Below, piece by piece: positions 24,947 through 45,700 of a DNA stretch of 64,000 bases (its first letter is position 1; each line of letters starts with the position of its first letter). This DNA is from a virus. The position numbers were made by a program, and so were the translations under genes. The notes under the pieces were generated by a model that worked only from the letters and a program-made list of their open reading frames with translations, made no database searches and was not told where the DNA came from. The DNA is taken from positions 55,817 through 119,816 of IMG/VR virus record IMGVR_UViG_3300017782_000002. The stretch is one strand, 5' to 3'.

Positions 24947-27900
24947 ATGGCAACTTACCTACCAAATGTAAATAAATACGTATCTAAGACGGAGTCTTTT
25001 ACTCCTAATTTTAAATTCATTTCTGACGCATTAGCACAGAGACAAGACAGATATGATACTAACTATAGAAAGATGAATAATCTTTATGGTAGTGTTGTTC
25101 ATGCTGATCTTACTAGACAGGATAATAAAGACATTAGAGATAACTATGCAAAAGAACTTGCACCTAAACTACAACAAATATCAGGAGTAGATTTTTCTTT
25201 GCAACAAAATGTAGATGCAGCTAAAGCATTATTTACACCATTCTTTAATGATGATAAAATGGTTAGAGATATTGTATTTACAAAAAGACATCAATCAGAA
25301 ATACAAAAATTTCAAAATTGGAGACAAAGTAATGATGAAGAAACAAGAAAGAAATACTGGGATGAAGGTGTACAAAACCTTAATTACAGTTTAGCTGATT
25401 TCCAAAAAGGTTCTAGAGATGATTCTATGAACGTACAATTACCAGAAGCTGTAGAAAACATTAACCTTATTGAGATGGGTATAAATGCTCTTAAAGAATT
25501 AGGTATAAGTGATGAACAAGTTAGCTTTGATGCAACTGGTAATTATATGATTACACAAAAAAATGGTTCAGCTTTAACTAAAAGAGCTATAGGTAAAAAT
25601 GAAAAAGGTGATATGGTTTATACAAACCCTGCTCAAGAGTTAATTTTACAAATGACTATGGATGATCCTAGAGTACAAAGATATTACCAAACAAAATTTT
25701 ATGTAAAAGCTAGACAGTTCTATGAAGCTAATGCTGAAAAGTATGGTGGTGAAGAAGCTGCTAAAAAAGTATTTGCTGATGATATGTTATCACAATACTT
25801 TCAAGATTATGAAAAACAAAAAATTGGAAAAGAAACAGAAGTAAAGACTGCTACTGAAGCCAAGAATGATTGGGAAGCATATAGAAAAAAACATGGAAAT
25901 TTTGTTCCAGGATCACAAGAAGAATTAGATTATAGTAGAGCTAAAGAAGAATACATACTTATAAAAAATGGCAGAAAGTTAGAAGATAAGCACCATGGTT
26001 TAGTATCTGGTGAATCTGAAAATATAGATGACATGTTTAAAAAAGCTGGTCAAGCTTATATGATGCATAACATAAACACTGATACAAGAGAAGCTGCTAA
26101 GTTTTATTCAATGATTGATGCAAAACAAACTATAAAAGCTGACGAGTTTGCTTTAAAAAACCATCAGCATAAATTAAACATGATAGAAAAAGAATTTCAA
26201 AATGCTTTAAACATTATGAAAGATAAAGGTTGGCAGCAAGATCAAAATGGTAATTGGGTGCCATTACCTTGGGCTGACTTAGGGGGTAACAATAGTAATA
26301 ATACAGAAGGTCAGGATGTTGGAGTTAATTATTTTATGGGAGGTCAAGGCACTGATGTTGTAGCAGGAGATGCTGAAGAAACAATGCCGGTTGCTGATGG
26401 TGAATCAGATCCTATAGCAGATAATGCTGTTGCAATTAATAATAAAATTCAAGGTATTAATGAAACAAGATGGAGCTCTATAGAACAGTATTATTCTAGA
26501 AAGTCTGCTGACATAAGTGATGATGATAACACTATGATGGCAGAAGGTATGAAAGTAGATGGTCAACTTTTATCATGGAAAGAAGCAAGAGAATATTATT
26601 TAGATCCTGCAAATAAGGATAAATTAAAAGAACTATATAATTCTGTAGAAAATGTTTTAGATGGTAATACTACAGGACCTGGTTTACAAAAAAGTGATCC
26701 ACAACTTTATTATCAATTAAAAAAGAATAAAGGTAAAATTGAATCTGATGCTGTAGCAGTGTTTGTAACTAGAGATAAACAAAATGAAATTACACAAAAT
26801 GTAATTGATTTATTAGTTGCTAACAATGAGATTACTCCTGCACAAGCAAATTTATTAAATGCTTATCCTTTATTTAATAGACAAGGGGAAATGCAAGAGC
26901 CAGAAGAAGTAGTAGGTAAAATGCAATCAGATTTTACAAACTGGTATAAGGAAATAGAACCTAATTTACCATTCTATAGACCTAGTCAATTATCTAATCA
27001 AGAAACAGAAGCATATGAACAAGTTGCTAGACAATTTGGTTTTCAAGGTGTAGATGCTTTATTAGATGCTTTATATCCTTATAACGTCCGTACAGGAGAT
27101 AATATAAAAGTAAACGGTAACCAAGGTTCATCTGGAGTTGTTAGCATTGATTTTGCTGCTGGTAAACACTTTAAAAACATGTATGATGAAGTATTTGGTA
27201 GAGACAGTGCAGTAGATCTTTTTAATGATATAAAAACTAAAGTTAATAAAAGGATGACTAATGCTAATGCAATACCAGGAGTTACCTCTTTTAACGCTGC
27301 ATCAATGCTAACTAATCAAGAACAAGGGGGAATAGGAGGTACTATATATAATAAATACAAATCAGAATATATTAATGGTCAAGTTAATCCTGCAGCTAAC
27401 ACACAGTTCCGTTTATTAAATGAGTTGCTTAAACAACCAAAACAAAACTATAGTGTAACTATAGGAGATGCAAGTGGAGAATATACAGCGGAAAATAATC
27501 CAGAAGCATTAACTATATTAGATCAAATAATTAAAGATACAAAAAGAAAACCTGGTGATTTTACTAAAGGTAAAGGACCTAATGTAACTTTAACTTGGTC
27601 TGAAGTACTAGGAGGTCCAGAAGGTAAAGGTAATCATAGTGGTTGGGTTTTAACTTTAGGAAACGATTATGCAGATCATTTAGAAACTACACTAGGACCT
27701 ATATTTGATGTAAAAGATAATAAGATTACTGTATTTGCTAGTAAAGAATTTGGTCAAAATAATCCTAACGCTGTAAAAAATACTTATGTATCAGCTACAG
27801 AATTTATGGTTGATTTAAACAAATCTAGAATTATAGAAAGTGATGGAGGTTCAGTAATGTTTTATAGAAACAGCAATGGTCAAATGATGCACAAGTATCG

Positions 27901-28090
27901 TTTAGCAACTTATAATAAAGAATTAGGGCAACTAGAATTATCAGATTATAGTGAACCTCAAGTTATTCCTGCTGGTGGATATGCTGTTGATCAAGTGTAT
28001 GAACTCTATGATCAAAGATTAGATCAACAAGAAATGACCAATCAAAGTGCAATTAATGCACACAAAAAAGAAAACCAACAAAGCAAATAA
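24947..28090 (+). CDS. Virion cargo protein, crAss-like, function unknown
   Basis: 1,047 residues with no enzyme motif that I can see. The N-terminus (TYLPNVNKYVSKTESFTPNFKFISDALAQRQ is the general region) and the helical, charged first 350 residues resemble the injected cargo proteins preceding the virion RNA polymerase in crAss-like phages. Residues ~440-480 are acidic and Gly/Asn-rich, a likely linker between two larger parts. The C-terminal ~350 residues have more beta character. No membrane helix or Cys cluster is present. It sits between the 961-aa cargo protein and the giant polymerase, 8 bases from the latter. A role in forming the ejection conduit or accompanying the polymerase is inference. 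Confidence 0.6.
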   Translation: MATYLPNVNKYVSKTESFTPNFKFISDALAQRQDRYDTNYRKMNNLYGSVVHADLTRQDNKDIRDNYAKELAPKLQQISGVDFSLQQNVDAAKALFTPFFNDDKMVRDIVFTKRHQSEIQKFQNWRQSNDEETRKKYWDEGVQNLNYSLADFQKGSRDDSMNVQLPEAVENINLIEMGINALKELGISDEQVSFDATGNYMITQKNGSALTKRAIGKNEKGDMVYTNPAQELILQMTMDDPRVQRYYQTKFYVKARQFYEANAEKYGGEEAAKKVFADDMLSQYFQDYEKQKIGKETEVKTATEAKNDWEAYRKKHGNFVPGSQEELDYSRAKEEYILIKNGRKLEDKHHGLVSGESENIDDMFKKAGQAYMMHNINTDTREAAKFYSMIDAKQTIKADEFALKNHQHKLNMIEKEFQNALNIMKDKGWQQDQNGNWVPLPWADLGGNNSNNTEGQDVGVNYFMGGQGTDVVAGDAEETMPVADGESDPIADNAVAINNKIQGINETRWSSIEQYYSRKSADISDDDNTMMAEGMKVDGQLLSWKEAREYYLDPANKDKLKELYNSVENVLDGNTTGPGLQKSDPQLYYQLKKNKGKIESDAVAVFVTRDKQNEITQNVIDLLVANNEITPAQANLLNAYPLFNRQGEMQEPEEVVGKMQSDFTNWYKEIEPNLPFYRPSQLSNQETEAYEQVARQFGFQGVDALLDALYPYNVRTGDNIKVNGNQGSSGVVSIDFAAGKHFKNMYDEVFGRDSAVDLFNDIKTKVNKRMTNANAIPGVTSFNAASMLTNQEQGGIGGTIYNKYKSEYINGQVNPAANTQFRLLNELLKQPKQNYSVTIGDASGEYTAENNPEALTILDQIIKDTKRKPGDFTKGKGPNVTLTWSEVLGGPEGKGNHSGWVLTLGNDYADHLETTLGPIFDVKDNKITVFASKEFGQNNPNAVKNTYVSATEFMVDLNKSRIIESDGGSVMFYRNSNGQMMHKYRLATYNKELGQLELSDYSEPQVIPAGGYAVDQVYELYDQRLDQQEMTNQSAINAHKKENQQSK

Positions 28091-28098
28091 ATAAGAGC

Positions 28099-31000
28099 AT
28101 GGCAGAAGAAAATCAAAATCTGAATCAACCAATGCCTAATGATGTTATGACGGGAACTCCTGACGTAAGCATAGGTACAAACAACTGGGAAGATATTAAA
28201 GATTCTTTAGTGACAGGTTCAGAACCTGTAGATAGTTATGAGATAGAAGGTTTAGAAAATGCTGTAAAATTGCATAACATGGTTTCAAAATTTCCTGTTA
28301 TACAGTCTACAGTTGCAGATGAACCAACTGCTGAAAGCGCAAGAGATGAAATTCTTGGTGGCGTTGTAAATCAGGTTATGGGTAATATTGCAAGAACAGG
28401 TTCTCCTAATGAAGTTCAACCAGTGCGTTTTGGTTTAAAAAGTTCTAATTTTGATAGGTATTATAATCATCCAAAATTTAATGAACTAGGATTTCATCCT
28501 TATGCTGATAATGAATTAAAATATAATGAAACATCTTCATGGTGGGATGAAAACAAAAGAGCAAGAGGTCAATTCTTAAACGTATTTTCTACAGGCTTCT
28601 TAAGTACTTATAAATCTTTAGGTGATCTTATGGCAGGTAATTATTTATCTGGAGACCAAGAGTCAGCAGAAAATTTTGCTGATGCAATGAGAATAGGTAA
28701 TTCAACTCAAGAAGGTGCTGGTGCTTTCTTTAACAATCTATTAGTAAACTCTGGTTATACATTTGGTATAATGGCTAACATAGCTGTAGAAGAACTTGCA
28801 TTAGCTGGTTTAGAGTTAGCAACTTTTGGTGGTGCTACACCTTTAGTAGCTAGTAGAACTGCATACAATGCTGTTAGAGGTGGTAAAGCTATAGATAAAA
28901 TGTTTGATGTTGGTGACTATTCTAATAAAAGTAGGAAGATGTTAAACCAAATGAAAAGTCTTGATTGGACAAAAGATTTTTGGCAAAGGGGTGGAAAATG
29001 GGCATCTAATGCTTTAACACCTAATACATATAAAGCATTAAAAAATATTAATAGTGTACAAAATGGAGCAACTTTACTTTCTAACTCAGCTAAAGTAGCT
29101 AAAACATCAGGAGCATTATATAGAGATTTTAGAGCTGTTAACCTTGCTATGGCTGAATCTAAGTTAGAAGCAGGTATGGTTACAAATGATTTGATAGATG
29201 AATTATATCTTGAGTTTGTTAATAAACATGGTCGTGCTCCTGTAGGTGATGAGTTAATGAAAATAGTAAACAAAGGTGATGAAGCATCTTTTGTAACTAC
29301 AATGTTAAATGCACCTGTTATATATTTCTCTAATGCAATTGTATTTGATACTATGCTAAGAGGTTTTAGAGGTACAGGTTCTTTATTAGCTGCAGCACAA
29401 AAAGGTATAGGTAGTAGAGTATTAAAAAGCTCTGCTAAACAGATGGGTAAGAATGGTAGCAAGGCTTTTTATGATGGAGGTAAAACTGCTTATAGAAGAT
29501 TTATAAACAAAGGTCTTTCTGGTAATTTAAAAACATTTGCAGGAGCAGCATTAAATTATGGTCAAGCAAACATTGTAGAAGGTTTTCAAGAACTTACACA
29601 AGAAGGTATTGCTGTAGGTGCAAAAGATTATTACCGTAATTTATATAAAGACCCAATGGCTGCAGGTTTAGATGCTATAGCTGCTTCAACATATGCGGGA
29701 GCCAAATCACAAATGTCTGGACAAGGTTTTGAAGTATTTATGTCAGGTTTCTTAATGGGCGGTCTAGTAAGAGGACCACAAAAATTAGTTTTTGAAAAAG
29801 GACCTGAATGGTATCAAAAGAAAACAGATCCTGAAGGATATGCAGAATATCAAAAAGCTAAAGAAGATTACATAAAAGAAACAGTAGATGTTCTTAATGA
29901 AGTATATGAAAACCCAGAAGAGTATTTCCACCCAGATAAAATTAATGCGTTAACACAAAAAGAGGTTAATGAGTCTTTGTTTTCTTCAACTTTTGCAGAA
30001 GACGCATTATCTTTTATGGATAAAAAAGATTCTGGAGTATTTAAACATTTATACACAGTTGTTGCTGCAGGTAAAATGCATGAGTTTAAAGGTCAAATGA
30101 AAGATTATCTGCAACTTGATGAAAAAGGATTAGCTGAAGCTTTTCCACATGCTACAAGTGAGGAAATAAAATCTGGAAAGACAAGAGAAAGAATTGAAAC
30201 TATGTTAGATAGAATGGATAACATAGAAAAAAATTATTCTGAACTTAATGATAAAATAATAAATCCTTTTAACCCTAAGAAACATAAGAAAGGAACTAAA
30301 GAACACTTTGAAGAAGCAATAAAAGCACAAGCATTTAATCATGCAAAAATGCTAGCAATGTTCACTAGAAATAGTTTTGAAAGAGCTTTAGAAAGATCAA
30401 ATGAAATATACACAGAGTTGTCTAACAATCCTGTATTAGCTAAGATGGATGCTAATGATATTTCTGTGCTTGCTGACACAGCACAGCTTATTCAAGAAAT
30501 AAGAATATTAAAATTAGATATTAAAAATACAACTACACCAATTGAAGGTGAAGGTAAAATAACATTATCTGGAGAACAAAAAACATTACTTGAAAAGAAG
30601 AAAAAGAAATTAGAACTATTACAAAATTATTTTGGTACATTATCTGATCCTGAAAATATAGAAAAGTATGAAGCACCTGTAGGTAAAGCAGAAGAAAGCG
30701 AACAAGATGCTGAGTTTAATAGACTGTCAAATATAATAACAGGAGATGCAATTAAAAAAGTTAGAGAAGATGTACTAAGTACAAAAGTTATTACTGATGA
30801 AGTTTCTGAAAGATTAGTAAAGTATCAAGCTGGTACTGCAAATCCATTTGGTGTTTTTGATATAAACAATCAAGACAAATTAGAAGAGGTTGTTATGCCT
30901 TATCTAAATGAAATTGCTGGTACTACTAAAGATAATTTTATAAAGTATGATGATGTTAAAGATACTATTATAAAACTTATAGATCACAAAGCATTAAAAG

Positions 31001-34000
31001 GTAGAGCAGAAGACTATAACAGAATAGTTAAAACAATACTAAACCCTGAGAATCTTGAAAATGTTTCTGAAAAAATTGCAATAGTATTTAAAGAACTATT
31101 CTTAGAGAACAAACGTGACGTTAAAGAAAGAATGAAAGCTCACGTAGCTCAAGAAGAAAAAATATCATTCTTAAAAAACTTGGCAGAATACGGAATATAT
31201 CCAGATGCAGAACAAGCAGAAACTTTCTTAAAAGGAGGAGAAGCTCCCTTTGAATATTTAACAGAAGAAGGTGTACTAACACCAGACAGCAACTTAGAAC
31301 TATCTGAGAAAAAAGATGAAATATTAGGTCATTACTTAAATCTTAGTGGCAATAAGATGCAAGGTGATAAGAAAAAAGAAAAGAAAGAAGAAGAAAAATC
31401 TGAAGAAAGTGATCCTTATAACTTTGAAAACACACACTTTGAAGAGAGTGAAGATGCAGAAGAAATTTCTGAAGGCTCTTTAGGTAAATATTTAGGTAAC
31501 CGTTATGGAGACGCATACTTAGTTAAGAAGCACAAAGAATACTTAATTAGTAGAGAAGGAAAAAAAGGTAAAACATTAACAGATCATGCTGAATGGTTAG
31601 CAGATCCAGTATCACTTAAAGCAAGAAAAGTAGAAAGTGGAATTAATAAAATACACGATAACATTTTTGTTGAAGAAAAACTTGTAGGTACATCTGATAA
31701 AACTTTTTATGGATGGTTAGCTACTATGCAAGGAGATCAAAGAGTATTAGACATTTTAAGAAGCGTTGATATTAGCATGTCAGATATTCTAGAAGAAGTT
31801 GAAGACAGATCAGAAACTAAACAAAAAGTAGCTCCTTCTAAAGTTGAGTATAAAGTTGTAGAACAAACATACACAGATAAAGATACAGGTGAAAGATTTA
31901 AAACTTTTAATGTAGAAGATGATAAAGGTAATGTTGTAAACAAAAAACCTTTTAATAGTAAAAAAGAAGCTAGCTCTGAAAAAAGAACTATAGAGAAAAA
32001 TAAAAAAACAAAAAAAGCTGAAAGTGCTGCTTTTACTTTTGCAGGAGTAGAATATAAAAAAGGTGATATACTTGTAGATCAAAATGGAGACAAGTATATG
32101 GTATTCTCTACACCTAAGATGGTAGAAGATAATGATAACATATACATTAAGAAGTTAGATAAAATTTCTAGCAAGCTTAAAAAAGATAAAATGTTTTTAG
32201 ATGAAACTTCTTTTAAAGAAATGAACCTAGAAACTGTGTCAGAAGAAAGCTTAGACTATAGAAACAGAGCTAGTAAAATTAAACCACATGAACCGTTAAC
32301 TATATTCCCTATATATAATAGAGATATAGTAAACAGAGATGATCAAATAGAAGAAGGTGTAACAAGATTACAAAATACATTAAGAAATTTAACTCCAGAG
32401 CAATCTAAAAAAATAACTTTTAGAGTTAGTCCTGGACCTAACTGGTTCCGTGCAGAAACAGAAGAGGCAAAACAAAACTTTAAAGAAGCTGTAGATGCTG
32501 TAGAAAATGAATTAATTAAAAGACATGGTCAAAAATGGCAAGTTGAAATTCAATTAAATGGAGAAACAATTGGTTTCTTTCAAGGACCTACCACACTAAA
32601 GCTAGTAAATAGAAAAGGGCAAAACATAAACCCTATGGAGATTACTGAATCTCAAGTACAAGATATATTTAAAGTATATAAAAATCAAAAAATAGAAGAT
32701 GTTACAAAACAAGTAAGAGATAATTATGTACAAGCTTATGGTATCTATGATAAGATAGATAAGTTAATGGAAGGTGTAGAGGGTGCTGAAGTCTTCTCAC
32801 AAAAAGATTTATCTGTTAATGTAAACATAACTGATGGTGCAATGTCTATATCAGAACCAGGAGAAGGAGTAAGCTTTAAAGACTTAGATCATAATTCATT
32901 AGCTTTTGTAAATAAAGAAGATCTAATAGATCCTAATGAAAAGCCTTATTATATATTAGATTACAATAGACAATATAAAGAAGACGGGAGTTTACCTACA
33001 AGTAAAGTAGAATTTAATGTTATAACTAATGTTAAAATAAATACACCATCAAGACAAAGACTTAAAGAAGAGACTAGAAAATATGAAAATAAATTTAGTC
33101 CTAGAAAAAGATTTGGTAAATATATTGCTCTTGTAAATTTACCTAATGGTAGATCTGCTTATGTTAATCTTATTCCGTCAGCAATGACTGAACAACAAGT
33201 TACAGGCTTGTTTACAGAAATGCAAAACAAATCTATAGATACTACTGAAAATAATATTGAAAATGGTGAAGTAAAAGCAGTAGGATATAATAGAGCTTAT
33301 AACAAAGACTTACAAACTAAAGTGTTTATAGGTGCTACACCAGGAGTTTATCTTGAAATGAAATTATCACAAGATGGTTCTTTTAGAATAGACTATTCTG
33401 ATCTGACTATAAAGAAAGGAGCACCCTTACAAAAAGGTACTTTTCTAATTAAGGCTAAAGCATTCCAAGAGTTAAATGACATACAAGAAGTATTAGACTC
33501 ATTAAACAAAGAATTGTTTGGTAGTGAAAGTCCAGTAGAAGGTAAAGCACACATTACATTTGAAAGTTTTAGAAATGCTGTACCAAAAAATCCTACTATT
33601 GCAGACATACAAAATATGTCTACACAACTTAATAAAGAAGTTAAAAAAGATATAAACTTTTCTTTGTCATCTACAGACAACATTCATGTAACAAAGAGAA
33701 AGTTAGCTAAATCAGCACCAAAAGAAATAGCTAAAGATGCTGAGTCAATGACTACAGAAGAAAAAATGGAGTCATATAGAAGTGATCATCAAAACATTGA
33801 TCCAAAGATATTAGAAGACATTGCAAAAAAACAAAATGCAAACAAAGAACTTACAGATTTAGAGCAAGCTATAGTTGCTCAAAACTTAGATGTACTTGCT
33901 GGTTTAAGACTAAAGTTTGCTACAAAACCTGTTTCTCAATCTAATACGGTAAGTGAAGCTACAAATCAAAACGCAGTTAGTGAGATTAGAGATTTAACTG

Positions 34001-37000
34001 AAAAGATAAAAACAAGGAAAAGACAAATAAGAACAGAAAATAGAGAAAACCCTGAGAATGCAGAAAAATCTAACAGAGATATAAACAATATAGCTGCAGC
34101 ACTTATAGCTGCTGATCCTGAATTACAACTTCTAGAAGCTCAATTAAGATTAGCAAAAAGTAAAGCTAATAAAATAATAAAAGGTTTTGATGGGCATGAT
34201 ATAGAAGACATAGAAACATTTACAAGATGGGTGCAAGATAACCTGCCTGCAGAAATAAGAATTAATGTTGAAGACTTAACAACAAAACTTAAAGACGGTT
34301 ATATTACTGTAGGTCAGTTCTATATGCAAATGAAAGATATTTCTAAGGGTATAATGGGACTTGAAGGAGTTATAACAGTAACTAAAAATTCACCATTTAA
34401 ATATCATGAAGCATTTCATTCTGTATTTAGATTATTACTTACAGATGCAGAGATTAAAAAATATTTAGGAATTGCTAAAAAAGAAGTAAAAGCAAAACTT
34501 AAAACAGAAGGAACTACTTTAGATGCAGCTCTTGAAAACATGAGAAAGCAACATGTAATGTATGCTGAGATGTCTAAAAAAGCATTAGAAGAAAGATACT
34601 ATGAAGAGTATCTTGCTGATGAGTTTGAAAAATTCAAAATGGATCCAAAAAGTACAAAGACTGATTCTGAGAATAAATCAATGTTCCAAAAAATAATAGA
34701 CTTTATAGTTGAGTTACTTACTGAGTATAGACCTAGACAACTTAATTCTTTATTTAGTGATATAGATTCAGGTAAATATAAGAATGCTTCTATAAAAGAA
34801 AATAGGTTTACAGATTCTTATGAAGGAGATGTAGCTTTTAAACTTGAATTATATGATCCTAAGTTTATTGAAAGAAAATCAACAGACGGTGAATCTAAAC
34901 TAAAGCAAGTAAAAAACTACATGCCTTCTGATCAACTGCATGAAATAGTTTCTGGTATTTCTAATTTATATACAGGTAGATTAGATAAAGCAGAAGCACC
35001 TATTGATGCTAAAATACTTCTTGATGAAACTATTAATGATTGGATTGAAATGTATAATCCAGAAAGAGACTTTTATCATGATAGAGGTGTATGGTATGAT
35101 GACAATGTAGATGAGCTTACTCTTTTATATGAATCTCTTTTAGATCAGATTGGTGATTTAAGAGAACTTGTTAAAAGAAATATATCTGAGTTTGCTGGAA
35201 TAAATATTGAAGATGCTGATTATACAGAAGTTAATGAAAAAGAAACAGGAGATTATGATAAGTCTGCTGATATGTTTGGTGGTTACTCAGGATTACCTAA
35301 ACGTTTAAGACATTTAATATCACAAACTACTTTAGAAGAAGAAGATAGATACGGTAATAAATATGTAAATACTGAAACAAAAGAACCACTTATTGTAGGA
35401 GTTAATCCAGAGTACGTGTACAATGGACTATTAAAGGTTCTTGCTAATACGCCTAATGACCTTAAGATGTTTCAGAAAGCTTGGTCATTTTCACAAAACA
35501 ATCACCATACTAAAGAGGTTATAAAAAACTTATTTAGAGAAATAGGCATATTAGAATTTGCACAAAGCGGTGAAATGTTTAAAGAAGATGCTGAAATACC
35601 ATCACAAGTAAATAACTCAGCATTATATCTTTCATTTATAAAAGGATTTAGAAAATATAGAGTTGACAATATATTTGCACATACTGATACAGATACTGGT
35701 GTTACACATTTATATGCAGCAAATAAAAAAGATGATGCTCATGTTACTGTTCAACAATGGGCTGCAGACTTTAACAGACAATATCCTAAATTAAAGCTAG
35801 AAAACTCATTAGAAAGAGAAGAAGCAAAAGATGCCTTAAGTGAATTAACTTCAATGTTAAAGCTTACATCAATACCTGAGACTTATAATTTAGCAGTAGA
35901 AGTACAAGCTGTAGCAGAAATATTAAAAAATGTTGCTGGTATGAACATACACCAAAATTATATATTATACAGTATATATGATGGTCTAACTACTTTAACA
36001 GAAGATCAACAGGTTTTATATGATGCATACTCTTTTGTTGATCCTATGCAAGTTGAAGAAATATCATACATTAGACAATCTTTAGTTTCTGGTGAAAATT
36101 TATATTTAGATAACCAAACTGTATATGAATCTGAAGAAGCAGACGCAAAACCAGAATTTGCAAAAGGTGGTGTAAAAGGAAGACTTAGAAAACTAGCATT
36201 AAATAATTCACAATTTGATGAAGCAGTTGGTGCCTCAACGTTTATAGATTCAGAAGGAAACAGAAGATATGCTCACCAAGATCCAACACTACACTTAGAA
36301 AAAATTGCTGAGATGGAAGGTGCAGAATATATAAACGACAAATTAACAGAAGATGTGTTTTTTGAAAAGAACATGTTATTAAAAGATCCTAAGTTTCAAG
36401 CAATGGTTGCTGCAGGTCAAGTTAGAGCTTTACGTATTGTTGGAAGCAAAGAGGGTGCTTTAAGATTAACTGAGTCAGGATTGTCATCAGAGCGTGGAAG
36501 AATGGTTGGAGATACAGGTGTAAGTTATGGTAAATCAAAACCAAGAGAATTTGCATTAGACATGATACATGCTTACCTTTTTAACTATAACAGACAATCT
36601 CCAGGCAAGACACAAATTGGTACAGATGATAAAGGTTTAGAATTTGCAATAGCTCCTACAAACATAAGAGTTATAGAAGCAAGTAATACTGGAGATTTTG
36701 TAGCAGTACCTGTACATAAGATGCTAAACAAAAGTAAACAAGGTATAGAGATTAATGATAACGCTCTAAACATGTTTATAAATGAATTAAAAATTGAATT
36801 TGATAGAGCAAGAAAGTTTCACATTGATGAGCAAGAAGGTGTAGAAAATCTAATAGATAAAAAAGAAAGATTAGGTAAGTTACATACTACTTATACCCTG
36901 TTGTCTAAATTAGTTACAGAAAACCGTAATATTAAAACAGAACTTCCTGGTATAGGTAAAGACCAAAGAGCTGCAATCACAGACGGAAAACAAAACATAT

Positions 37001-40000
37001 ATTTATCTACAGTTGCAAAAGCAGTAACCTCTAATTTATCTCAAGACCAAGAAGGTGTAGTTGATATAGATGGTGAAATGTTTGTAATGAAACATAAAGG
37101 TAAATTAAATTTTAATGAGCTTTCAGATGAAGAACAAACAAACTTAATAGATAACTACCGCCCTAGCATTACAGCTATAAAAGATACAAAAGGAGCAAAA
37201 CAATATAAAGTAACAATAGACGGAATTGATAATTATACATATAGTTCTGATACACAAAGATTCTTTAAAGGTTATAAGGACATGGTTATCTTTGAATTTG
37301 AAAGACTTGAAGATTCTGAAACAGTTGAAACTAAACTTGTTGAGTCAGAAGAGACAGGTGAAATAATTGCTGATGCTGTACAAAAAGATTTAACTGCTGT
37401 ACAAAGAGTAGAGCAAGTAGCTGAATTTGGTATAGAAGGTGTAGAAGAAAAAGATTTATTTGATACTGTATTTGCAGAAATAGGAGGTAGAGAAATTGTA
37501 AAAGACAGATTAATGGATGAAGTAAATGAGTTTATCCTTACTCTAAAAGAAATAAAAGCATACCAAAAAGTATCTAAGGAAATAAGAGAAGGTCTTGGTG
37601 TATATAAAACAATAAGAAAAGGTACAGACACTGCATACGATAGTTCAGATAATGAATACTATATGGATCTATACAACCTTAGACCAGGTGATCCTGATTT
37701 TAACCTTGCACAAATATATCTTAATAACTATATAAACACAAAGTCTTTTAATCAACTTATATTAGGAGATCAAGCATTATCTCTCAAAGATTTTATTGAT
37801 GCAGTAAAAAGAGCTAAGATGCAAAACGGTGCTGGACCGTCAGCAGCAACAGAAATCTATGATGAAGATCTTGGTGTTATGCATAAGGTAGACCGTATGA
37901 GTGCGGTTGTTCATGAAGATTTTGAGTATGAACAAATGTTTAATGAAATATATAAGTCTGATAAAGATAGAGCTAGAGCAAAGGGAGACTTAGCTGATGG
38001 TCAGATATACATAACTGAAAAAACATTAAGATATATGTTATTTGGTTTTGGTAAATTAAACAAGGCACAGTCACAAGTTTTAGATGACATTAAAGAAGGT
38101 AACATAGCAAAAATAAATGAAGAGTTTTTTGGTACTGGTAATAAACTAAGCCATAAAAAATTAGATATGATTGCTAACTCTTTAAAGATTGTTTACGGAG
38201 ATGGTAAAACTTTCTTAAAAATGTCTGCTACACTGTTATCTAAAAATGCATATTCTGTACAGGACGTAGATGGTAATTGGGTTGCGAGAGAAGGAAGAGA
38301 AGATTTACACAACTTAAGAGTTAAATTAGAACAATTTGAAGAAAAAGAATGGGCAGAAGGTAGAGGTACTCTTAGTATGTCAGTACCTAAATCTGCTTCT
38401 AAGATGTTTAATGAAAACATTGTACCTGACAAAATTGATATAATAAACCAAACTCCTATTGATCCTAAATATACAATGGATTTATCTGCAGAATACATGA
38501 GACTGCAAATGATTAATCCTTCTAATAAAATAGAAATTGTAGATGCTAGACAAATTAAAAATCTTATTACAAGTGAACAAAGTTTAGATGAGACTGTTAT
38601 ACTTAACGGTCAGGAAGTTTCTGTTAGAGATTTAGTTATTAAATATCACAAATTAGCAGGTGATAAACTTATGAATGAGTTTTTTGCACAAAGAAATTTA
38701 ACCTTTACTTGGTCTAATGCAATAAGAACATTAGATAAAGTAAAAGAGAATAATAAATTTATACCAGAAAATTCAAAAATAGACGGTGACTTAAGAGCAT
38801 TTGTTAAATATGCAATAGCAGGTTTAGAAGCTTCACAAGCTAAAACACAAATGTTATCATATTTTGAAGTAGATGAGTTTGGTAATCCAAAGTATAATTT
38901 AAATGGACCAATGACTCATGATAAATTTGAAGAACTATTCTTAGCATATTTTTCTAAAGGAATTTTAGCAGGAAAACAACCAGGTATATCTGCAGCTTTA
39001 GTATCAGACTTTGGTGTATACACAGTAAAGCAAGTAGAAAAAATAGATGAATTTGGTACACCAATAAAATGGAAAGTTATTAGAAGTAACGATTGGGAAA
39101 ATCTTAAAAGACAAAATCCAAACAAGTACAAAGCTGTAAAACAAAGAGAAAACTTAGGAGAACACGTATTAAAAGTTGGTGACTTTTATCTTGATAGATT
39201 AAGAAGTAACGTTCAAGAATATAATGATAAAGGTGAGTTAACAGGATTAACTTATACTGAATTTATGATGCCTCCTCATTTTAAATCACAGTTAGATAAT
39301 AATATAGCTTGGAATAAACCATTGCCAGATTCTATTGCTAAGATGTTTGGTATAAGAATTCCTTCACAAGATAAACACTCTGCAGTTAATTTAAAAATGG
39401 TAGATTATCTTCCTGTATTTATGGGATCATCTGCAATGTATGCAAGAGAACTTATAGAATTATCTGGAGCTGACTTTGATATTGACAAACTTTACATGCA
39501 AATGAAAGAGTTTTATTATAACGGTAAAGACTTTGTTGAGTATGGTAAAGCTAAAGATGACAAAAGTGGTTATAAAGAATATGTAAGATGGGTATTAGAA
39601 AACGCTACTAAAAGCTCAGCTATTAGACAAGCCTTAACAAGATGGAATGATTCTCAAAAAACAACACAACCTCTTGGAATAAGCGCTGAACAATATCTTA
39701 CATTAACACCAGAAGAGCAACTTGCAGCAAGAAAAGAAATAACAAAATCTTCTAATAAAATTGTTATGGATATGCTAGATGCTGTTATGCACAGTAATGT
39801 AGCTCTTGATTCTGTTATGATTAACAAAATGTTTGACAGAGCAGAAGGTTTACCTGAAGCATTAGAGTCTATTGGTTTACCAGTTACTCTTGCTGACTAT
39901 AAAGCATTTAAAGAAGCTAACAACAGAGAACCTTATACAGCTGCAATTAATAACGAGTTGTTAGATGTTAAGTTTGCTTTGTTAGGTAACAAAGGTATTA

Positions 40001-42762
40001 CACAACCAAAAGAAGGAAGACATATTGGTTTATATTTTGAGCCTGCTGTTACTACACCTTTGTCTGACACAGAAAAACAAGGTGGTTTAGAATGGTTAAG
40101 AGAAACAATAGGAGATGTTCTTAAAGTCACTGGAGAAAATCAGCTAGATGTTGATAGTTTACTGGGACAAATAGAAGCATGGACTAATAATAAAGAAGGT
40201 GCAAGATCTATTGGTAATGTAGTACTACCTAACATGATTATAAGTTTACTAACAGAATATGGAGTAACACTTAGAAATAAAAAAGGAATTTTAAAGCCTA
40301 AAATGAATGGTGTAACTTATAACAGTTTTGCACACCATTATGAAATCAATCATGAAACAGGTGAGTCTGATCCACTATTACCAAGAAAACAATTTATCAT
40401 CTCTGCTCTTATTACAGCAATGACAGATAATGCTAAATTAAGATTAGCAGCTAAGCTAGGTCTAAAAAAACAAGCTCTTGCTAATGTAACTACTATGTTG
40501 GGTATGGGTGTAGATTTAAAAACAATTTTATTGACACTTCAGTTTCCTACTATAAAAGAAGCTTTATTTAATGGAGAAAATAAAGACGATATTTATGACC
40601 CTGGATACAAAACACTTCTATTTAAAAGGCTAGTTAACATTGAAGAAGTATTACAACAAGATTTACAAAAAACTAAAAAAGAAAATCATACAAAAGTACA
40701 AGTTAATCAAGACAACTTGATTGAAGGTATACGTACTATTAAATTTGATAGGTCAGAAGATTTTGTAACATTTGGTTTAGGTGAAGTATCTATAGAAAGT
40801 TTACTTTTAGAAAAAGCAGTAATAACAGAATATTTAAAATTTGTTGCAATTACTGATACAGCACAACACATGAGCTCTTTAATAAATTTACAAAACGGTT
40901 TAGGTAAAGATTTAGTACAATTTGATAAAACTCAAGAAGCTGCAGAAGAATTAGGGCTGCTTGCATCTAACAAAGAATTTACAGATAGCATTATACCTTT
41001 TGATGTACGTGATATATTCTTAAAGAAAGGTAGCATGCATAATACTTATTACACTGTTTATAGAGAACTGTATGATAAATTGTTACCTCAAGTAATGTTA
41101 AAAAGAACACCTAAATTCTTAAGCATTAAGGATAAAGTTTTAGCTAATATGAGAAAAGGTGATGATAAGTTTAAGAAAAAAGTTAGCGGTGATCTTGTAA
41201 ACTACTTAACGCTTAAAGCATACATGTTGTCTTTAAGTAAAAATAAGTATGCAGGAAACACAAGAGAATCATTATCTAACTCTTTTGTCTATGATGGATC
41301 TATTTATAAAAACATTGATGAAAATTCTTTAACTATAGAAAAAGTAATTAATAGAGTTAAAGATAGATTAGCTAATGAGAATAAAACAAACTACTTTATA
41401 AATAATTTTGTAAGGTTAATCCCGGCTATGCATGAAGATAACAAGTCTGGTATGATAAAATTACAATCTAATACATGGACACAGTTTTCAGATTCTGAAT
41501 TAATTAGAGTACAAAACAGTATACTAGAATTATTAAATTTAGATAATGGTGATGGAACTATGTATGATGATGTAAAAAACATTGTACACTATTTAGCTGT
41601 TATGGATGGTATGAGCTTTGGTTCAGGATCTTTTATTAATGTAATACCAACAGCATTAACTGCAGAAATATTAAACAGTGTAGATTCTGTGCAAGATTTG
41701 TTTATGCAAGAAAAAGAAAGAAAAGGTGCATATAAAAACATCTTTGGTGTAGAGTTAGCAGAAATGGTTGAAGAGTTTATAAAAGGTTATTCAACTAGTA
41801 AAGCTAATTTCTATAATCTAAATCCTGTATACAAAATAGACACAATAGAAAAAGAAAGCGCTATAGATAAAGCTTTAGGTATAGACAATGAAGCAGAGAG
41901 ATCAAAAAGAAATAAAAAAGTATTTGAAAATTCTCCTATTTTTATAGATGAAACTAACAAAACTTTAACTATAGATATATTTAGAGGTCTTCCTTTTGAA
42001 TTTAACCAAAGGGTTAAAAAAGTTAGATTCTTACCTAAAGGTAACAATGATGCAAACTGGTACAAAAGGAACAAACATATAGATCAACTAAAAAAATCAG
42101 GATTAAGCGTTACTTACGTTAAAGTTAAAGTTGGAGACACACAAACTTTAATTCCACAAATCATATTCCCTGCTGTAATAAGAAACGGTAAACAAATATA
42201 CATGTTAGATTCTGTACTAAGAGACACAGCTTACAAAACAGAAGAGGATTTAATGAGCATGATACCTTCTGGTCAAAATGTAGCTTACGGTAATGAAGCA
42301 AAATATGTTGAGGTTGACGTTAAAGGTTCTTCTAGCCAAACAGCAATAGCATTTATGTTTGGAGATAGACCAACATCACAAGACATTATTGATTTTGGAA
42401 ATGACAAAAGAAAATCTTTTGGTGAAGAAATAGAAGTTGATGAAGAGCAAGAACAAAGCGGAGATTCTTTAGGAGGCTTCTTTGGTTTTAATGCAGAGCA
42501 AGGAGATGTTAATAATGAAAGAGAAGAATTTGATGAAGAAGATGAAGCTAGATTTGAAAACACAGAAGATCCTACAGAACTATCTGATGAAGAAAAACTA
42601 ACTGATTGGTATAATACATTAACCGTAGAACAACAATCTAAGTTGGCAACTAATGATGATGTTAGTATTACGTCTGCTAAAGATGTTGTATCTTTGTTAA
42701 AGAGACCTAATAAACCTAATGCAGACAGCGTTATAGATCTGCTTAAAAAATGTTATATATAA
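28099..42762 (+). CDS. Giant virion RNA polymerase polyprotein (crAss-like, DFDID)
   Basis: 4,887 residues. The catalytic metal-binding motif DFDID is at 3792-3796, within SGADFDIDKLYMQ; the upstream RIPSQ...MVDYLP block (R3753) and PKSASK (3430-3435) fit the two double-psi beta-barrels of this single-subunit polymerase family, characterised in phi14:2. The polymerase region probably spans ~2230-4760, with the conserved GYSGLPKRLRHLI at 2395. Upstream lie a conserved cargo N-terminus (NFDRYYNHPKF, then SSWWDE, ~110-160), a hydrophobic stretch (~205-260), long helical regions, a Lys/Glu-rich linker (~1086) and a zincin-like HEAFH (2103-2107) with a downstream EEYLADEF. The C-terminus is acidic (~4771-4834). 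In this family the enzyme is packaged and injected to transcribe early genes. Whether the chain is cleaved is unknown. Confidence 0.9.
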   Translation: MAEENQNLNQPMPNDVMTGTPDVSIGTNNWEDIKDSLVTGSEPVDSYEIEGLENAVKLHNMVSKFPVIQSTVADEPTAESARDEILGGVVNQVMGNIARTGSPNEVQPVRFGLKSSNFDRYYNHPKFNELGFHPYADNELKYNETSSWWDENKRARGQFLNVFSTGFLSTYKSLGDLMAGNYLSGDQESAENFADAMRIGNSTQEGAGAFFNNLLVNSGYTFGIMANIAVEELALAGLELATFGGATPLVASRTAYNAVRGGKAIDKMFDVGDYSNKSRKMLNQMKSLDWTKDFWQRGGKWASNALTPNTYKALKNINSVQNGATLLSNSAKVAKTSGALYRDFRAVNLAMAESKLEAGMVTNDLIDELYLEFVNKHGRAPVGDELMKIVNKGDEASFVTTMLNAPVIYFSNAIVFDTMLRGFRGTGSLLAAAQKGIGSRVLKSSAKQMGKNGSKAFYDGGKTAYRRFINKGLSGNLKTFAGAALNYGQANIVEGFQELTQEGIAVGAKDYYRNLYKDPMAAGLDAIAASTYAGAKSQMSGQGFEVFMSGFLMGGLVRGPQKLVFEKGPEWYQKKTDPEGYAEYQKAKEDYIKETVDVLNEVYENPEEYFHPDKINALTQKEVNESLFSSTFAEDALSFMDKKDSGVFKHLYTVVAAGKMHEFKGQMKDYLQLDEKGLAEAFPHATSEEIKSGKTRERIETMLDRMDNIEKNYSELNDKIINPFNPKKHKKGTKEHFEEAIKAQAFNHAKMLAMFTRNSFERALERSNEIYTELSNNPVLAKMDANDISVLADTAQLIQEIRILKLDIKNTTTPIEGEGKITLSGEQKTLLEKKKKKLELLQNYFGTLSDPENIEKYEAPVGKAEESEQDAEFNRLSNIITGDAIKKVREDVLSTKVITDEVSERLVKYQAGTANPFGVFDINNQDKLEEVVMPYLNEIAGTTKDNFIKYDDVKDTIIKLIDHKALKGRAEDYNRIVKTILNPENLENVSEKIAIVFKELFLENKRDVKERMKAHVAQEEKISFLKNLAEYGIYPDAEQAETFLKGGEAPFEYLTEEGVLTPDSNLELSEKKDEILGHYLNLSGNKMQGDKKKEKKEEEKSEESDPYNFENTHFEESEDAEEISEGSLGKYLGNRYGDAYLVKKHKEYLISREGKKGKTLTDHAEWLADPVSLKARKVESGINKIHDNIFVEEKLVGTSDKTFYGWLATMQGDQRVLDILRSVDISMSDILEEVEDRSETKQKVAPSKVEYKVVEQTYTDKDTGERFKTFNVEDDKGNVVNKKPFNSKKEASSEKRTIEKNKKTKKAESAAFTFAGVEYKKGDILVDQNGDKYMVFSTPKMVEDNDNIYIKKLDKISSKLKKDKMFLDETSFKEMNLETVSEESLDYRNRASKIKPHEPLTIFPIYNRDIVNRDDQIEEGVTRLQNTLRNLTPEQSKKITFRVSPGPNWFRAETEEAKQNFKEAVDAVENELIKRHGQKWQVEIQLNGETIGFFQGPTTLKLVNRKGQNINPMEITESQVQDIFKVYKNQKIEDVTKQVRDNYVQAYGIYDKIDKLMEGVEGAEVFSQKDLSVNVNITDGAMSISEPGEGVSFKDLDHNSLAFVNKEDLIDPNEKPYYILDYNRQYKEDGSLPTSKVEFNVITNVKINTPSRQRLKEETRKYENKFSPRKRFGKYIALVNLPNGRSAYVNLIPSAMTEQQVTGLFTEMQNKSIDTTENNIENGEVKAVGYNRAYNKDLQTKVFIGATPGVYLEMKLSQDGSFRIDYSDLTIKKGAPLQKGTFLIKAKAFQELNDIQEVLDSLNKELFGSESPVEGKAHITFESFRNAVPKNPTIADIQNMSTQLNKEVKKDINFSLSSTDNIHVTKRKLAKSAPKEIAKDAESMTTEEKMESYRSDHQNIDPKILEDIAKKQNANKELTDLEQAIVAQNLDVLAGLRLKFATKPVSQSNTVSEATNQNAVSEIRDLTEKIKTRKRQIRTENRENPENAEKSNRDINNIAAALIAADPELQLLEAQLRLAKSKANKIIKGFDGHDIEDIETFTRWVQDNLPAEIRINVEDLTTKLKDGYITVGQFYMQMKDISKGIMGLEGVITVTKNSPFKYHEAFHSVFRLLLTDAEIKKYLGIAKKEVKAKLKTEGTTLDAALENMRKQHVMYAEMSKKALEERYYEEYLADEFEKFKMDPKSTKTDSENKSMFQKIIDFIVELLTEYRPRQLNSLFSDIDSGKYKNASIKENRFTDSYEGDVAFKLELYDPKFIERKSTDGESKLKQVKNYMPSDQLHEIVSGISNLYTGRLDKAEAPIDAKILLDETINDWIEMYNPERDFYHDRGVWYDDNVDELTLLYESLLDQIGDLRELVKRNISEFAGINIEDADYTEVNEKETGDYDKSADMFGGYSGLPKRLRHLISQTTLEEEDRYGNKYVNTETKEPLIVGVNPEYVYNGLLKVLANTPNDLKMFQKAWSFSQNNHHTKEVIKNLFREIGILEFAQSGEMFKEDAEIPSQVNNSALYLSFIKGFRKYRVDNIFAHTDTDTGVTHLYAANKKDDAHVTVQQWAADFNRQYPKLKLENSLEREEAKDALSELTSMLKLTSIPETYNLAVEVQAVAEILKNVAGMNIHQNYILYSIYDGLTTLTEDQQVLYDAYSFVDPMQVEEISYIRQSLVSGENLYLDNQTVYESEEADAKPEFAKGGVKGRLRKLALNNSQFDEAVGASTFIDSEGNRRYAHQDPTLHLEKIAEMEGAEYINDKLTEDVFFEKNMLLKDPKFQAMVAAGQVRALRIVGSKEGALRLTESGLSSERGRMVGDTGVSYGKSKPREFALDMIHAYLFNYNRQSPGKTQIGTDDKGLEFAIAPTNIRVIEASNTGDFVAVPVHKMLNKSKQGIEINDNALNMFINELKIEFDRARKFHIDEQEGVENLIDKKERLGKLHTTYTLLSKLVTENRNIKTELPGIGKDQRAAITDGKQNIYLSTVAKAVTSNLSQDQEGVVDIDGEMFVMKHKGKLNFNELSDEEQTNLIDNYRPSITAIKDTKGAKQYKVTIDGIDNYTYSSDTQRFFKGYKDMVIFEFERLEDSETVETKLVESEETGEIIADAVQKDLTAVQRVEQVAEFGIEGVEEKDLFDTVFAEIGGREIVKDRLMDEVNEFILTLKEIKAYQKVSKEIREGLGVYKTIRKGTDTAYDSSDNEYYMDLYNLRPGDPDFNLAQIYLNNYINTKSFNQLILGDQALSLKDFIDAVKRAKMQNGAGPSAATEIYDEDLGVMHKVDRMSAVVHEDFEYEQMFNEIYKSDKDRARAKGDLADGQIYITEKTLRYMLFGFGKLNKAQSQVLDDIKEGNIAKINEEFFGTGNKLSHKKLDMIANSLKIVYGDGKTFLKMSATLLSKNAYSVQDVDGNWVAREGREDLHNLRVKLEQFEEKEWAEGRGTLSMSVPKSASKMFNENIVPDKIDIINQTPIDPKYTMDLSAEYMRLQMINPSNKIEIVDARQIKNLITSEQSLDETVILNGQEVSVRDLVIKYHKLAGDKLMNEFFAQRNLTFTWSNAIRTLDKVKENNKFIPENSKIDGDLRAFVKYAIAGLEASQAKTQMLSYFEVDEFGNPKYNLNGPMTHDKFEELFLAYFSKGILAGKQPGISAALVSDFGVYTVKQVEKIDEFGTPIKWKVIRSNDWENLKRQNPNKYKAVKQRENLGEHVLKVGDFYLDRLRSNVQEYNDKGELTGLTYTEFMMPPHFKSQLDNNIAWNKPLPDSIAKMFGIRIPSQDKHSAVNLKMVDYLPVFMGSSAMYARELIELSGADFDIDKLYMQMKEFYYNGKDFVEYGKAKDDKSGYKEYVRWVLENATKSSAIRQALTRWNDSQKTTQPLGISAEQYLTLTPEEQLAARKEITKSSNKIVMDMLDAVMHSNVALDSVMINKMFDRAEGLPEALESIGLPVTLADYKAFKEANNREPYTAAINNELLDVKFALLGNKGITQPKEGRHIGLYFEPAVTTPLSDTEKQGGLEWLRETIGDVLKVTGENQLDVDSLLGQIEAWTNNKEGARSIGNVVLPNMIISLLTEYGVTLRNKKGILKPKMNGVTYNSFAHHYEINHETGESDPLLPRKQFIISALITAMTDNAKLRLAAKLGLKKQALANVTTMLGMGVDLKTILLTLQFPTIKEALFNGENKDDIYDPGYKTLLFKRLVNIEEVLQQDLQKTKKENHTKVQVNQDNLIEGIRTIKFDRSEDFVTFGLGEVSIESLLLEKAVITEYLKFVAITDTAQHMSSLINLQNGLGKDLVQFDKTQEAAEELGLLASNKEFTDSIIPFDVRDIFLKKGSMHNTYYTVYRELYDKLLPQVMLKRTPKFLSIKDKVLANMRKGDDKFKKKVSGDLVNYLTLKAYMLSLSKNKYAGNTRESLSNSFVYDGSIYKNIDENSLTIEKVINRVKDRLANENKTNYFINNFVRLIPAMHEDNKSGMIKLQSNTWTQFSDSELIRVQNSILELLNLDNGDGTMYDDVKNIVHYLAVMDGMSFGSGSFINVIPTALTAEILNSVDSVQDLFMQEKERKGAYKNIFGVELAEMVEEFIKGYSTSKANFYNLNPVYKIDTIEKESAIDKALGIDNEAERSKRNKKVFENSPIFIDETNKTLTIDIFRGLPFEFNQRVKKVRFLPKGNNDANWYKRNKHIDQLKKSGLSVTYVKVKVGDTQTLIPQIIFPAVIRNGKQIYMLDSVLRDTAYKTEEDLMSMIPSGQNVAYGNEAKYVEVDVKGSSSQTAIAFMFGDRPTSQDIIDFGNDKRKSFGEEIEVDEEQEQSGDSLGGFFGFNAEQGDVNNEREEFDEEDEARFENTEDPTELSDEEKLTDWYNTLTVEQQSKLATNDDVSITSAKDVVSLLKRPNKPNADSVIDLLKKCYI

Positions 42763-45700
42763 TGGCAAGATGTTTTAATCAAAATACAAAAGAGTACAAA
42801 GACTTATTAAAAGTACACGGAGACACTTTTACTGTTGATCTTCTTATTAATGATTGGCAGTCTATGACAGGTAGTGAGTCTATTCCTTCTACGTTAGATG
42901 TTGACAATATGTTAAACTCTAGTGATGTTATTATGTCTTTAAGAAGAGACTCATTAGAAAATTCTCTTTTAAGAAATCTTGCTAATAAAAACATTATTAG
43001 TAAATATAATAACAGATGGTATGTTAATGTTACAGTACCTGGTGTAGAAAAAGGATCACCAACTAATCTTAAAAATAATGTAGGAAGATTACAAAACTAT
43101 TTAAGAAATCAAAATTTAGCAAATGCTGTATCACTAAAAAGAACTGCTAATACTTATGAAGTAATAGTAAACAATGACATGTTTACTAAAAGAGATTTAA
43201 TTGCTGATAGAAGTAACCAAGACTCTACAAAAATAATAGAAGTTCTTAATCATCTTAACAATTTATTCCCACAAGTTAAAGTTAGATACATGACTCCTGG
43301 TGAAGCTAAGACTGCTTATGACTCATTACCTAAAGCATCTAAGAGAAAGGTACAGTTTAAAGATATAAAGAGTTTTTATTATAAAGGCAATGCTGTAATA
43401 ATAAAAGGTAGAGTAACAAAAGACACAGCTGTAGAAGAAGTACTGCATCCTTTTGTAGATGCTCTATATAAAAGTAATGGTAAACTTTTTAGCAACATGT
43501 TGTCAGAAGCAAAAAAGACTTTTCCTGAGCTAGCGCAGCAAATAGAATCAGCATACTCTGCTAAGAAAGGGTTTTCTGCAAAAGACAGAGGACAAGAGTT
43601 AGTGACACAAGCTTTATCAAGACATTTTAATAATGAATATGAAACCACTCCTTCAAAACCTTGGTACAAATCAATAAAAGATTTTCTAAAATGGTTTAGT
43701 GATATTATAAAAGATGTCTATAAAAATTACATGGGTGGTAAGTTAAAACTTAATGTAGGGTTTATAAGATCTGACATGACAATGAGTGAAATGGCTAAGA
43801 TGTTAAACACATCAGAGTTTGAATTTAGGCTAGACTTAAATGTCATGGGTGATAGGATGGTGCAATATTCTTTAAGCAAAGGTATGCAAAGTCTTGTAGA
43901 TACAGCTAGAATGCAATCTAACCCTACACAATCAAAAATCATTACTAGGATATTACATCAAGTAGAAGATATAGATGATGTGTTTGATAGTTTAGGTGCA
44001 AGCAGAGTTACCATGGACAGTAAGTCAGGTGAATTTGTTGATGTAGATTCTGGAGATATACTAGAAAGTTTAGAAAATAAAGTACACAGTAGCAACACTG
44101 ATTACTCATATATAGTAGAAGGTATAATGAATCAAGATGATACATTGATAGATCCTTCTAATAACATTAGAGCAATAGCTGCAAGAATAGACGGCATGAA
44201 AGAAGATGGTAGTGTAATATTACCAGGAGTTGTTCTTGCTGATCCAGCAAGCGGTATAGCAACTAAAGCTACTGCGTTAAGAATTAGACCAGATGGTTCT
44301 ATAACTGTTATTTCTATAATGAAAGAAAGTGATGCAAAAGGAAAACAGTCTACATACATAAATGCACAAAGACAAATTTTAGAAAACATAGGGTATGATG
44401 TAACTGATGAATCATTTACTATTTTTACAGACAATAAAGGAGCATACACATATACAAAGATGCACCGTGATTCACACAACGCTGAAGCTGTTGAAGAATT
44501 AGTTCCTAGTGATATAGATACAGAAAACAAAAGTATTGTAGATGAAATATTAGGTGTTAATAGAAAAGTAGAAGGTGATAACCCTACTGAAGACTCTATA
44601 GAAGGAGAGCCTGAATTTTTAGATTCTCCTACATATGATGCTCTTTTTGGTGTATTAAAACCATATAGAAAAGTATTATTAAAAAGAGAGCAAGGTATAA
44701 AAACTGCAAGAAATATAGTTTCTATGGATGGAGGTAGAAAAGAAATTATAGAGCAGGTACAAATGAGCAGGTTGATAGTTGAGCAGATGTACGAAAGACC
44801 TGAAGAAATAAAAAGAATATATGTAGATGTTATTAAGGATGCTTTAAGACAACTAGAAGAAATAAAAGAATACGCTACAAATCCTGAAAACTTTGACAAG
44901 CCTGAGTTTATATCTAAAATATTAAACTGGCAAAAATATATAGAAAACTTTAGAGGTTTGGTAAACTTAACTGAGTCAGTAGGTTTAAACAAATCAGAGT
45001 TAAAATATAAAGACAATTTACAAAAAGCTCTAAATGATATTATTGGTATAAGAAAAGCAGATAGTAGTATTGTTGAAAAAGGTATATTTGATATAGCAAT
45101 TAAAGATTACGTTAGAGAACTTATAAAAAATAACTCTAACAGGAATTTTACACCTTCACAATTAGACGAACTATTAACCACAGCTAGAGATATAAATGCT
45201 GTTGAATATCAAAGTGGTGATATGGCTACATCAAGAGATACTATTCTTGCTCTAATGGATAAGCTATACAAAAGGGACAGGCAAAAAGTTCTTGACAAGG
45301 TAGAAGCAAGAGCTCCAAGAATTAGAGCAGCAGCTTTAAAGTTAGCAAGACTAAATGCTAGCAATAAAATTGACTATAGCTTTATGTTAGAGTTTGATGA
45401 TGATGGTAATTTTACAGGTAGATATGTAACAAAAGTTGGCAAAAACTATACAGACAAACAAAGAGAAGTTAGATCAAAACTATATGATGAAAACGGGTTT
45501 AGAAAGTATATAACTATAGAGAACAAAGAAGAGGCAACAGATGAGCAATTAAATCATAACAAACAGTTAGCTAAAGACAAAGAAGAATACGGTAAGTTTA
45601 TGCGTGCTGAAATTAAAACAGAAACAGGCGTAGAAGATGGAGAGTATCATAAATATTCTGATGACTTTAAAGAGGCTAGATCAAAACATGAAGTTTACAT

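Follow-up and report, generated by a model that had tools for sequence, protein, structure and literature searches.

Why should a phage carry its virion RNA polymerase in one reading frame with a cargo protein and a zincin-like domain, and does such a chain act whole or is it cut first? The question is raised by an open reading frame of 4,887 residues (554 kDa; 28099..42762, + strand) in the DNA analysed here, a window of 64,000 nt that covers positions 55,817-119,816 of the 119,816-base record IMGVR_UViG_3300017782_000002 (G000). TerL, portal and major head protein families find matches elsewhere in this record and virion structural families lie upstream of the frame; judged by these genes, the source is a crAss-like phage. 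A preliminary description had read the frame as a fusion of cargo, zincin-like and polymerase regions, and all three parts are indeed present: a gp47-like cargo part, a zincin-like domain and a crAss-like virion RNA polymerase. Since its N-terminal part is homologous to gp47 and its C-terminal part to gp50/gp66, the chain is, by homology, both proteins in one frame, with the gp49-like part encoded by the next gene.

The fused frame and its parts

The frame opens with an ATG and is uninterrupted by stops over 4,887 aa. An assembly artefact or a pseudogene is ruled out by the equivalent frame of an independent 52-kb record, G001 (4,898 aa, about 73% identical over 4,864 aligned codons), and by the substitution profile between the two: dN is 0.12-0.32 and dS 0.6-1.3 in 20/20 successive stretches of 250 codons, which gives a dN/dS of about 0.10-0.34 along the chain. 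Since dN is low relative to dS in all 20 stretches, including that at the junction, purifying selection acts on the whole frame, which is thus no accident of assembly. Pfam and PHROGs searches with the whole chain gave nothing useful and blastn gave no matches. The hydrophobic stretch that had been described is weak, the best 19-residue Kyte-Doolittle means being 1.44 (aa 233) and 1.43 (aa 398). These lie below the usual membrane-helix cut-off of 1.6, and by this measure no stretch of the 4,887-aa chain reaches a typical transmembrane score.

The conserved cargo N-terminus, also part of the preliminary description, is borne out by profile comparison. A conserved segment at aa 105-148 (28411..28542, +) matches the Carjivirus gp45 family (hhalign E 3.3e-8), and in a profile of aa 1-2050 the region from aa 107 to 938 (28417..30912, +) aligns to residues 87-906 of the crAss001 gp47 family (prob 99.2, E 7.5e-20). 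A plain tblastn query of aa 1-967 obtained no match, nor did hhalign of the N-terminal part against phi14:2 g067 and the N-terminal part of cr1_1, both single sequences. The homology to crAss001 gp47 extends along the chain and includes the C-terminal HExxH domain of that family. This zincin-like domain (aa 2043-2240; 34225..34818, +) matches residues 2105-2296 of crAss001 gp47 by blastp (E 1.2e-6) and by hhalign (E 1.9e-18). It holds the HEAFH motif that had been noted (aa 2103-2107; 34405..34419, +), which is the sole HExxH in the chain and whose H, E, F and H are invariant in 49/49 rows, as is a Glu-Glu pair within EEYLADEF (aa 2169-2170; 34603..34608, +), a candidate third zinc ligand.

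The polymerase part occupies aa 2249 (approximately) to 4887 (34843..42762, +), as delimited by superposition on 6VR4, so that the roughly 2,200 residues said to precede it are confirmed. It matches the gp50 family (hhalign E 9.1e-29), and a profile of the part past the junction matches phi14:2 gp66 (E 1.3e-19). With aa 3059-4258 as query, tblastn matched 91 phage records with E values down to 9e-14, among them crAss001 gp50 (9e-14), Carjivirus gp44 (5e-7) and phi14:2 g066 (1e-2). DFDID, the second-barrel catalytic metal-binding motif, lies where it had been placed (aa 3792-3796; 39472..39486, +). Its three Asp are invariant in 50/50 rows, as are Lys 3435 (38401..38403, +) and Lys 3477 (38527..38529, +) of the first-barrel region, which probably have catalytic roles. 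The GxRxP...S...LP...G.DFDxD..Y pattern of the gp66/gp50 family surrounds the motif, with 12 invariant columns across eight aligned polymerases. Two rows, L063 and L073, were removed by hand from the core alignment, and L073 also from the zincin alignment.

An AlphaFold2 model of the core with both barrel regions (aa 3072-4246; 37312..40836, +), built from 50 sequences, has a pLDDT of 80.5 and a pTM of 0.81. In the PDB it matches best the virion polymerase of phi14:2, 6VR4 (Foldseek E 6.7e-24; VIA-align Z 22.6, 4.1 Å over 761 residues), followed by QDE-1 (Z 17.1, model residues 136-1072), plant RDR2 and phage polymerases. The preliminary description had staked the assignment on two double-psi beta-barrels, and the model matches 6VR4 and QDE-1 across both barrel regions, a call made by superposition over the two regions rather than by tracing the barrels by hand. 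Searched with phmmer against PDB sequences, the polymerase core gave no match; an eight-row polymerase profile that itself includes phi14:2 retrieved 6VR4 among them. By sequence and model, then, the C-terminal part is a Crassvirales virion RNA polymerase of the gp66/gp50 family, with predicted transcription activity. The fold match to 6VR4 rules out a polyvalent effector protein without polymerase, and a T7-type polymerase, as in N4 and the Schitoviridae, is ruled out because the modelled core (aa 3072-4246) has the two-barrel fold of 6VR4 and QDE-1.

Between the two parts lies the junction, a low-confidence linker at aa 2241-2248 (34819..34842, +) defined by conservation and model. Conservation falls past aa 2240 and resumes at about aa 2394, and the model shows this low-conservation segment mostly as confident helix. 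Since aa 2249-2523 superpose on residues 98-339 of 6VR4 (VIA-align Z 7.0, 5.3 Å, 192 residues; a middling score, yet the top row and the expected protein), the polymerase would begin within a few residues of the zincin-like domain, across a low-confidence linker of about 10 residues. From the trailing invariant Asn of the zincin-like domain to the first conserved Gly of the polymerase there are 155-205 aa (49 rows). The distance from the zincin site to DFD is 1,689 aa, and it is about 1,640-1,760 aa when the separate proteins of crAss001, Carjivirus, cr11_1 and cr127_1 are joined end to end.

Fused and split arrangements among relatives

The fusion is common in crAss-like relatives, has appeared or vanished several times, and is not peculiar to this phage. 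In the best 80 of at least 526 relatives from a first IMG/VR scan, HE[AP]FH and DFDxD stand in one frame in 71/80, contig-end cuts and frame breaks being among the remaining nine. Four scans gave 319 loci, reduced to 251 distinct cores by leaving out seven without the motif in frame and 61 repeats. Fused chains with HExxH inside the distance limits account for 130 cores, five of which are also joined to a gp49-like part; 69 are split, 22 have a long upstream frame without HExxH inside the limits, 25 are cut by a contig end and five are fragments. Since the scans retain the best 80 per query, these counts do not measure how frequent each arrangement is in nature. A tree of 211 cores, which leaves out the cut, fragment and long-upstream rows without HExxH, requires 12 changes of the fused/split label, at least seven of them on well-supported branches, versus 63 with shuffled labels, and places the window among 60 rows that form an entirely fused set (support 98). 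The tree is unrooted, and each change on it may be a fusion or a split.

Deposited genomes show the same variety. Two of 13, the Suoliviridae cr1_1 and cr109_1, have the fusion as in the window. Five have a polymerase ORF of 4.1-4.4 kaa that we take as polymerase plus gp49-like part, on the basis of homology in Carjivirus, cr11_1 and cr127_1 and of length alone in crAss002 and ctbg_1, and five have three separate genes (crAss001, phi14:2, cr85_1, cr112_1 and Dulem virus 41). In the last, bajarodcaudo virus 1, the polymerase ORF is interrupted near the motif: an endonuclease ORF (L008:21441-22172) separates two polymerase ORFs close to the catalytic motif, and by sequence this insertion looks like an intron. 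In one fused chain, L073, zincin and DFD lie 2,715 residues apart (about 1,690 in the window), and the surplus of about 1,000 residues is possibly an intein.

The window's fusion belongs to a known family rather than being a new machine, because G001, 71/80 of the best IMG/VR loci and the two deposited Suoliviridae genomes carry equivalents. The chain of cr1_1 (NC_055873, 4,551 aa) has YHEAFH with HExxH at 2001 and DFDVD at 3445, and that of cr109_1 (NC_055892) has YHEAWH with HExxH at 1718 and DFDID at 3222; read with table 11, the cr109_1 sequence shows 70 stops, which fits a recoded genome. Their database annotations are 'hypothetical protein' and 'DprA-like'. Fusion of crAss-like vRNAPs to large proteins without known function is stated in a passage of PMC10770324, the study of Thermus phage P23-45, part of a review puts the upper size of polymerase genes at about 6,000 aa (PMC10136315), and a figure of Yutin et al. 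2021 draws the transcription block (PMC7886860). Such a fusion goes unmentioned in the partial texts of PMC12386605, PMC11054128 and PMC9523058, and no text in the open-licence literature was found that describes recurring fusion and splitting, or dead zincins.

Characterised systems divide the same parts differently. Phi14:2 gp66 (6VR4) shares with the window the two-barrel single-chain fold and DFDID, but in phi14:2 the polymerase is a separate gene of 2,180 aa, 45% of 4,887 and thus less than half as long, as the preliminary description had it. Its neighbour g067 (1,797 aa) has no HExxH and is unmatched to the window's N-terminal part, the HExxH sitting in g065 instead. By sequence this solved polymerase corresponds to crAss001 gp50, whereas a passage of PMC10172136 equates the solved homologue with gp49. 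Like the window, crAss001 has a gp47-like protein with HEAFH, a gp50-like polymerase and a gp49-like companion, but as three genes (gp47, gp49 and gp50), with gp47 on the opposite strand. Carjivirus communis gp45 and gp44, a zincin-bearing RNAP-associated protein followed by the catalytic subunit, are colinear with the window; in Carjivirus, however, the polymerase is fused to the gp49-like part (4,070 aa) and the zincin-bearing protein is separate. The N4 vRNAP (gp50, 3,500 aa) is likewise a giant ejected polymerase chain with an HExxH domain (residue 2228), but its polymerase is described in sections of PMC12633501 as T7-type, and the HExxH follows the polymerase rather than preceding it; no similarity of the window's zincin-like domain to the N4 HExxH domain was detected. 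Gp96 of Thermus phage P23-45 also places a two-barrel virion polymerase in a giant chain (5,002 aa; Z 9.4), but there the polymerase occupies the N-terminus and its fusion partner is the tail tape measure protein.

Whole chain or processed chain

For crAss-like phages, as for N4, the passage of a folded machine of several hundred kDa along a tail tube is still to be explained. Passages of PMC10172136 and PMC6235969 place gp47, gp49 and gp50 in the crAss001 virion, and the former paper describes, in part of its text, an ejection model in which gp45 moves N-to-C through constrictions of <50 Å and cargo is partly unfolded. For the window's phage we infer that the chain is probably packaged and ejected whole and that the polymerase works still joined to the N-terminal part. 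The gp47-like part and the polymerase would be packed in the capsid as one chain, which would be ejected N-terminus first, partly unfolded and ahead of the DNA; following the crAss001 model, the gp47-like part would exit first and draw the polymerase behind it. The chain would then refold in the cytoplasm and transcribe early genes while joined to its N-terminal part. The zincin-like domain would probably not be needed for separating the parts and would more likely have another target or be partly structural. Gel bands excised from crAss001 included ones at 150, 270 and >300 kDa, with gp47, gp49 and gp50 detected, and are compatible with full-length chains, the sections of PMC6235969 concerned giving no assignment of bands to proteins. 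From N4, the full-length vRNAP has been purified and solved, with residues 1007-3500 modelled, according to a section of PMC12633501.

The best-surviving alternative, which we nevertheless hold to be rather unlikely, is that the chain is a self-cleaving polyprotein: the zincin-like domain (aa 2043-2240) would cut the chain close to or at the junction, either during assembly or once ejected, and free a gp47-like protein and a polymerase like that of crAss001. The architecture invites this idea. The domain directly precedes the polymerase part, and a peptidase before a separable domain is the classic self-cleaving layout; its HEAFH and Glu-Glu are constant throughout the 49 rows of the window's relatives, the gp47 of split relatives ends just past the corresponding domain, and Iyer et al. 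propose, in a passage of PMC5512222, that zincins process multidomain (polyvalent) phage proteins. However, split relatives also have the domain, although they contain no fusion to cut, and no conserved short motif is visible at aa 2240-2390 in the alignment of relatives, although proteases may read structure.

Moreover, an intact HExxH site does not accompany every fusion. Among the 22 chains with a long upstream frame, 11 keep the homologous domain (E 2e-17 to 3e-33) and have lost HExxH: the motif reads WEAFR or WEAMR in L150, L163, L306, L309, L314 and L316 and HExxE in L249, L250, L254 and L260, and L238 likewise lacks HExxH. Those with WEAFR or WEAMR are single ORFs of 5,178-5,650 aa that hold all three transcription parts (the gp49-like one by length), and none has an HExxH after DFD. 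The second site, on the gp49-like part, reads EETAH in L150, L309 and L314 and EAGH in L163 and is not visible in the stretch from L306, the five chains inspected. As for the other 11 of the 22, L073 and L289 have HEAFH outside the distance limits, L107 and L117 have HExxH far upstream, and the domain search gave no significant match in L124 and L126 and none in L063, L134, L172, L202 and L283. The 11 fused relatives without HExxH show that such fusions persist without this zincin active site, and cutting by the zincin therefore cannot be a general requirement for a workable fusion. These relatives represent perhaps few lineages, outside the window's 60-row fused set, and another protease could act there.

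Whole-chain delivery thus stays the preferred reading, and we would extend it tentatively to the group. Phages of the crAss-like group may deliver their transcription machinery as three parts linked covalently in interchangeable ways, the extreme being a single unprocessed chain of about 5,600 residues, with no intact zincin site found in it, that passes via a tail channel of <50 Å; the zincin would be a separate injected activity, whose site has disappeared from some lineages and in others is carried by the gp49-like part. Raw counts for a zincin site in the N-terminal part or fused chain versus the gp49-like protein are 77/14 versus 15/24 (Fisher p 3.6e-7); on the tree there are only five independent pairs (sign test not significant, median p 0.5), and we claim no trade-off between the sites.

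It is unlikely, too, that the zincin-like domain lacks any peptidase function, serves in structure or in the handling of nucleic acid, and keeps HExxH for another reason. A Pfam search over 49 members named no metallopeptidase family, and neither Foldseek nor VIA-align returned a zincin for the model of the segment, whose pLDDT is 70.8 with a poor strand region, so that the absent match does not imply another fold; in some relatives, moreover, HExxH decays to HExxE or WEAFR. Of the preliminary assignment as zincin-like, it is therefore the motif and the gp47 homology that stand, and not a structural match. However, both His, the first Glu and the downstream Glu pair never vary in the window's clade, and Carjivirus gp45 is annotated as a zincin protease. 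Because HEAFH is invariant in the window's relatives, the domain is here probably an active peptidase, as predicted from its sequence.

That an internal translation start at the junction makes both parts separately, with the long frame merely nominal, is highly improbable: split relatives do begin their polymerase near the junction position, but aa 2200-2420 hold no conserved Met column (15/49 rows at best) and 71/71 fused first-scan loci stay open across the junction. Recurrent fusion and splitting, together with zincins that are dead in several of the largest fusions, supply variants from nature by which 'threaded whole' can be told from 'cut first'. They also show that ORFs of 4-5.6 kaa annotated as 'hypothetical' in crAss-like genomes are polymerases.

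Neighbouring genes

The companion ORF (1,801 aa; 42750..48155, +) opens inside the fused ORF, 13 bases from its end, and encodes a gp49-like, RNA-polymerase-associated protein, with tblastn matches to 70 phage records and blastp matches to crAss001 gp49 (E 3.7e-24) and phi14:2 g065 (E 3.6e-8). Its EEVLHPF (aa 229-235; 43434..43454, +) resembles a degenerate HExxH site. Among 51 scorable companion relatives of the first scan, 47/51 have EExLHP, L077 and L086 have HEYLHP, and L081 and L093 have neither. Upstream, an ORF of 1,047 aa (24947..28090, +) takes the place of the cargo protein gp46 by position only; it has no PHROG match and no blastp match with E<1 among the proteins compared.

The record L014 encodes GroEL (L014:5036-6655, -; phrog_5725 E 3.3e-156, PF00118 E 1.6e-72) and GroES (L014:16673-16975, -; phrog_3188 E 7.3e-17), and one may speculate that this phage chaperonin could serve giant proteins. 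In the window, a 1,312-aa ORF (51175-55113) contains SprB repeats (PF13573 E 4.8e-20), known from adhesins of gliding Bacteroidota, and as a sequence feature points to a gliding, T9SS-bearing host. A 1,117-aa ORF (57669-61022) ends in a Por secretion (type IX) sorting domain (PF18962 E 1e-9) and shows by eye a signal-peptide-like N-terminus and many GCxDxxAxNYxxxAxxDDGSC-like repeats; its product is perhaps exported by the host T9SS. Directly behind the transcription genes lies a 109-aa SET-domain protein (48161-48490; PF00856 E 8.1e-9), and a B12-type ribonucleotide reductase is encoded at 48683-50653 on the - strand (phrog_367 E 1.7e-134; PF21995), where the GC skew falls.
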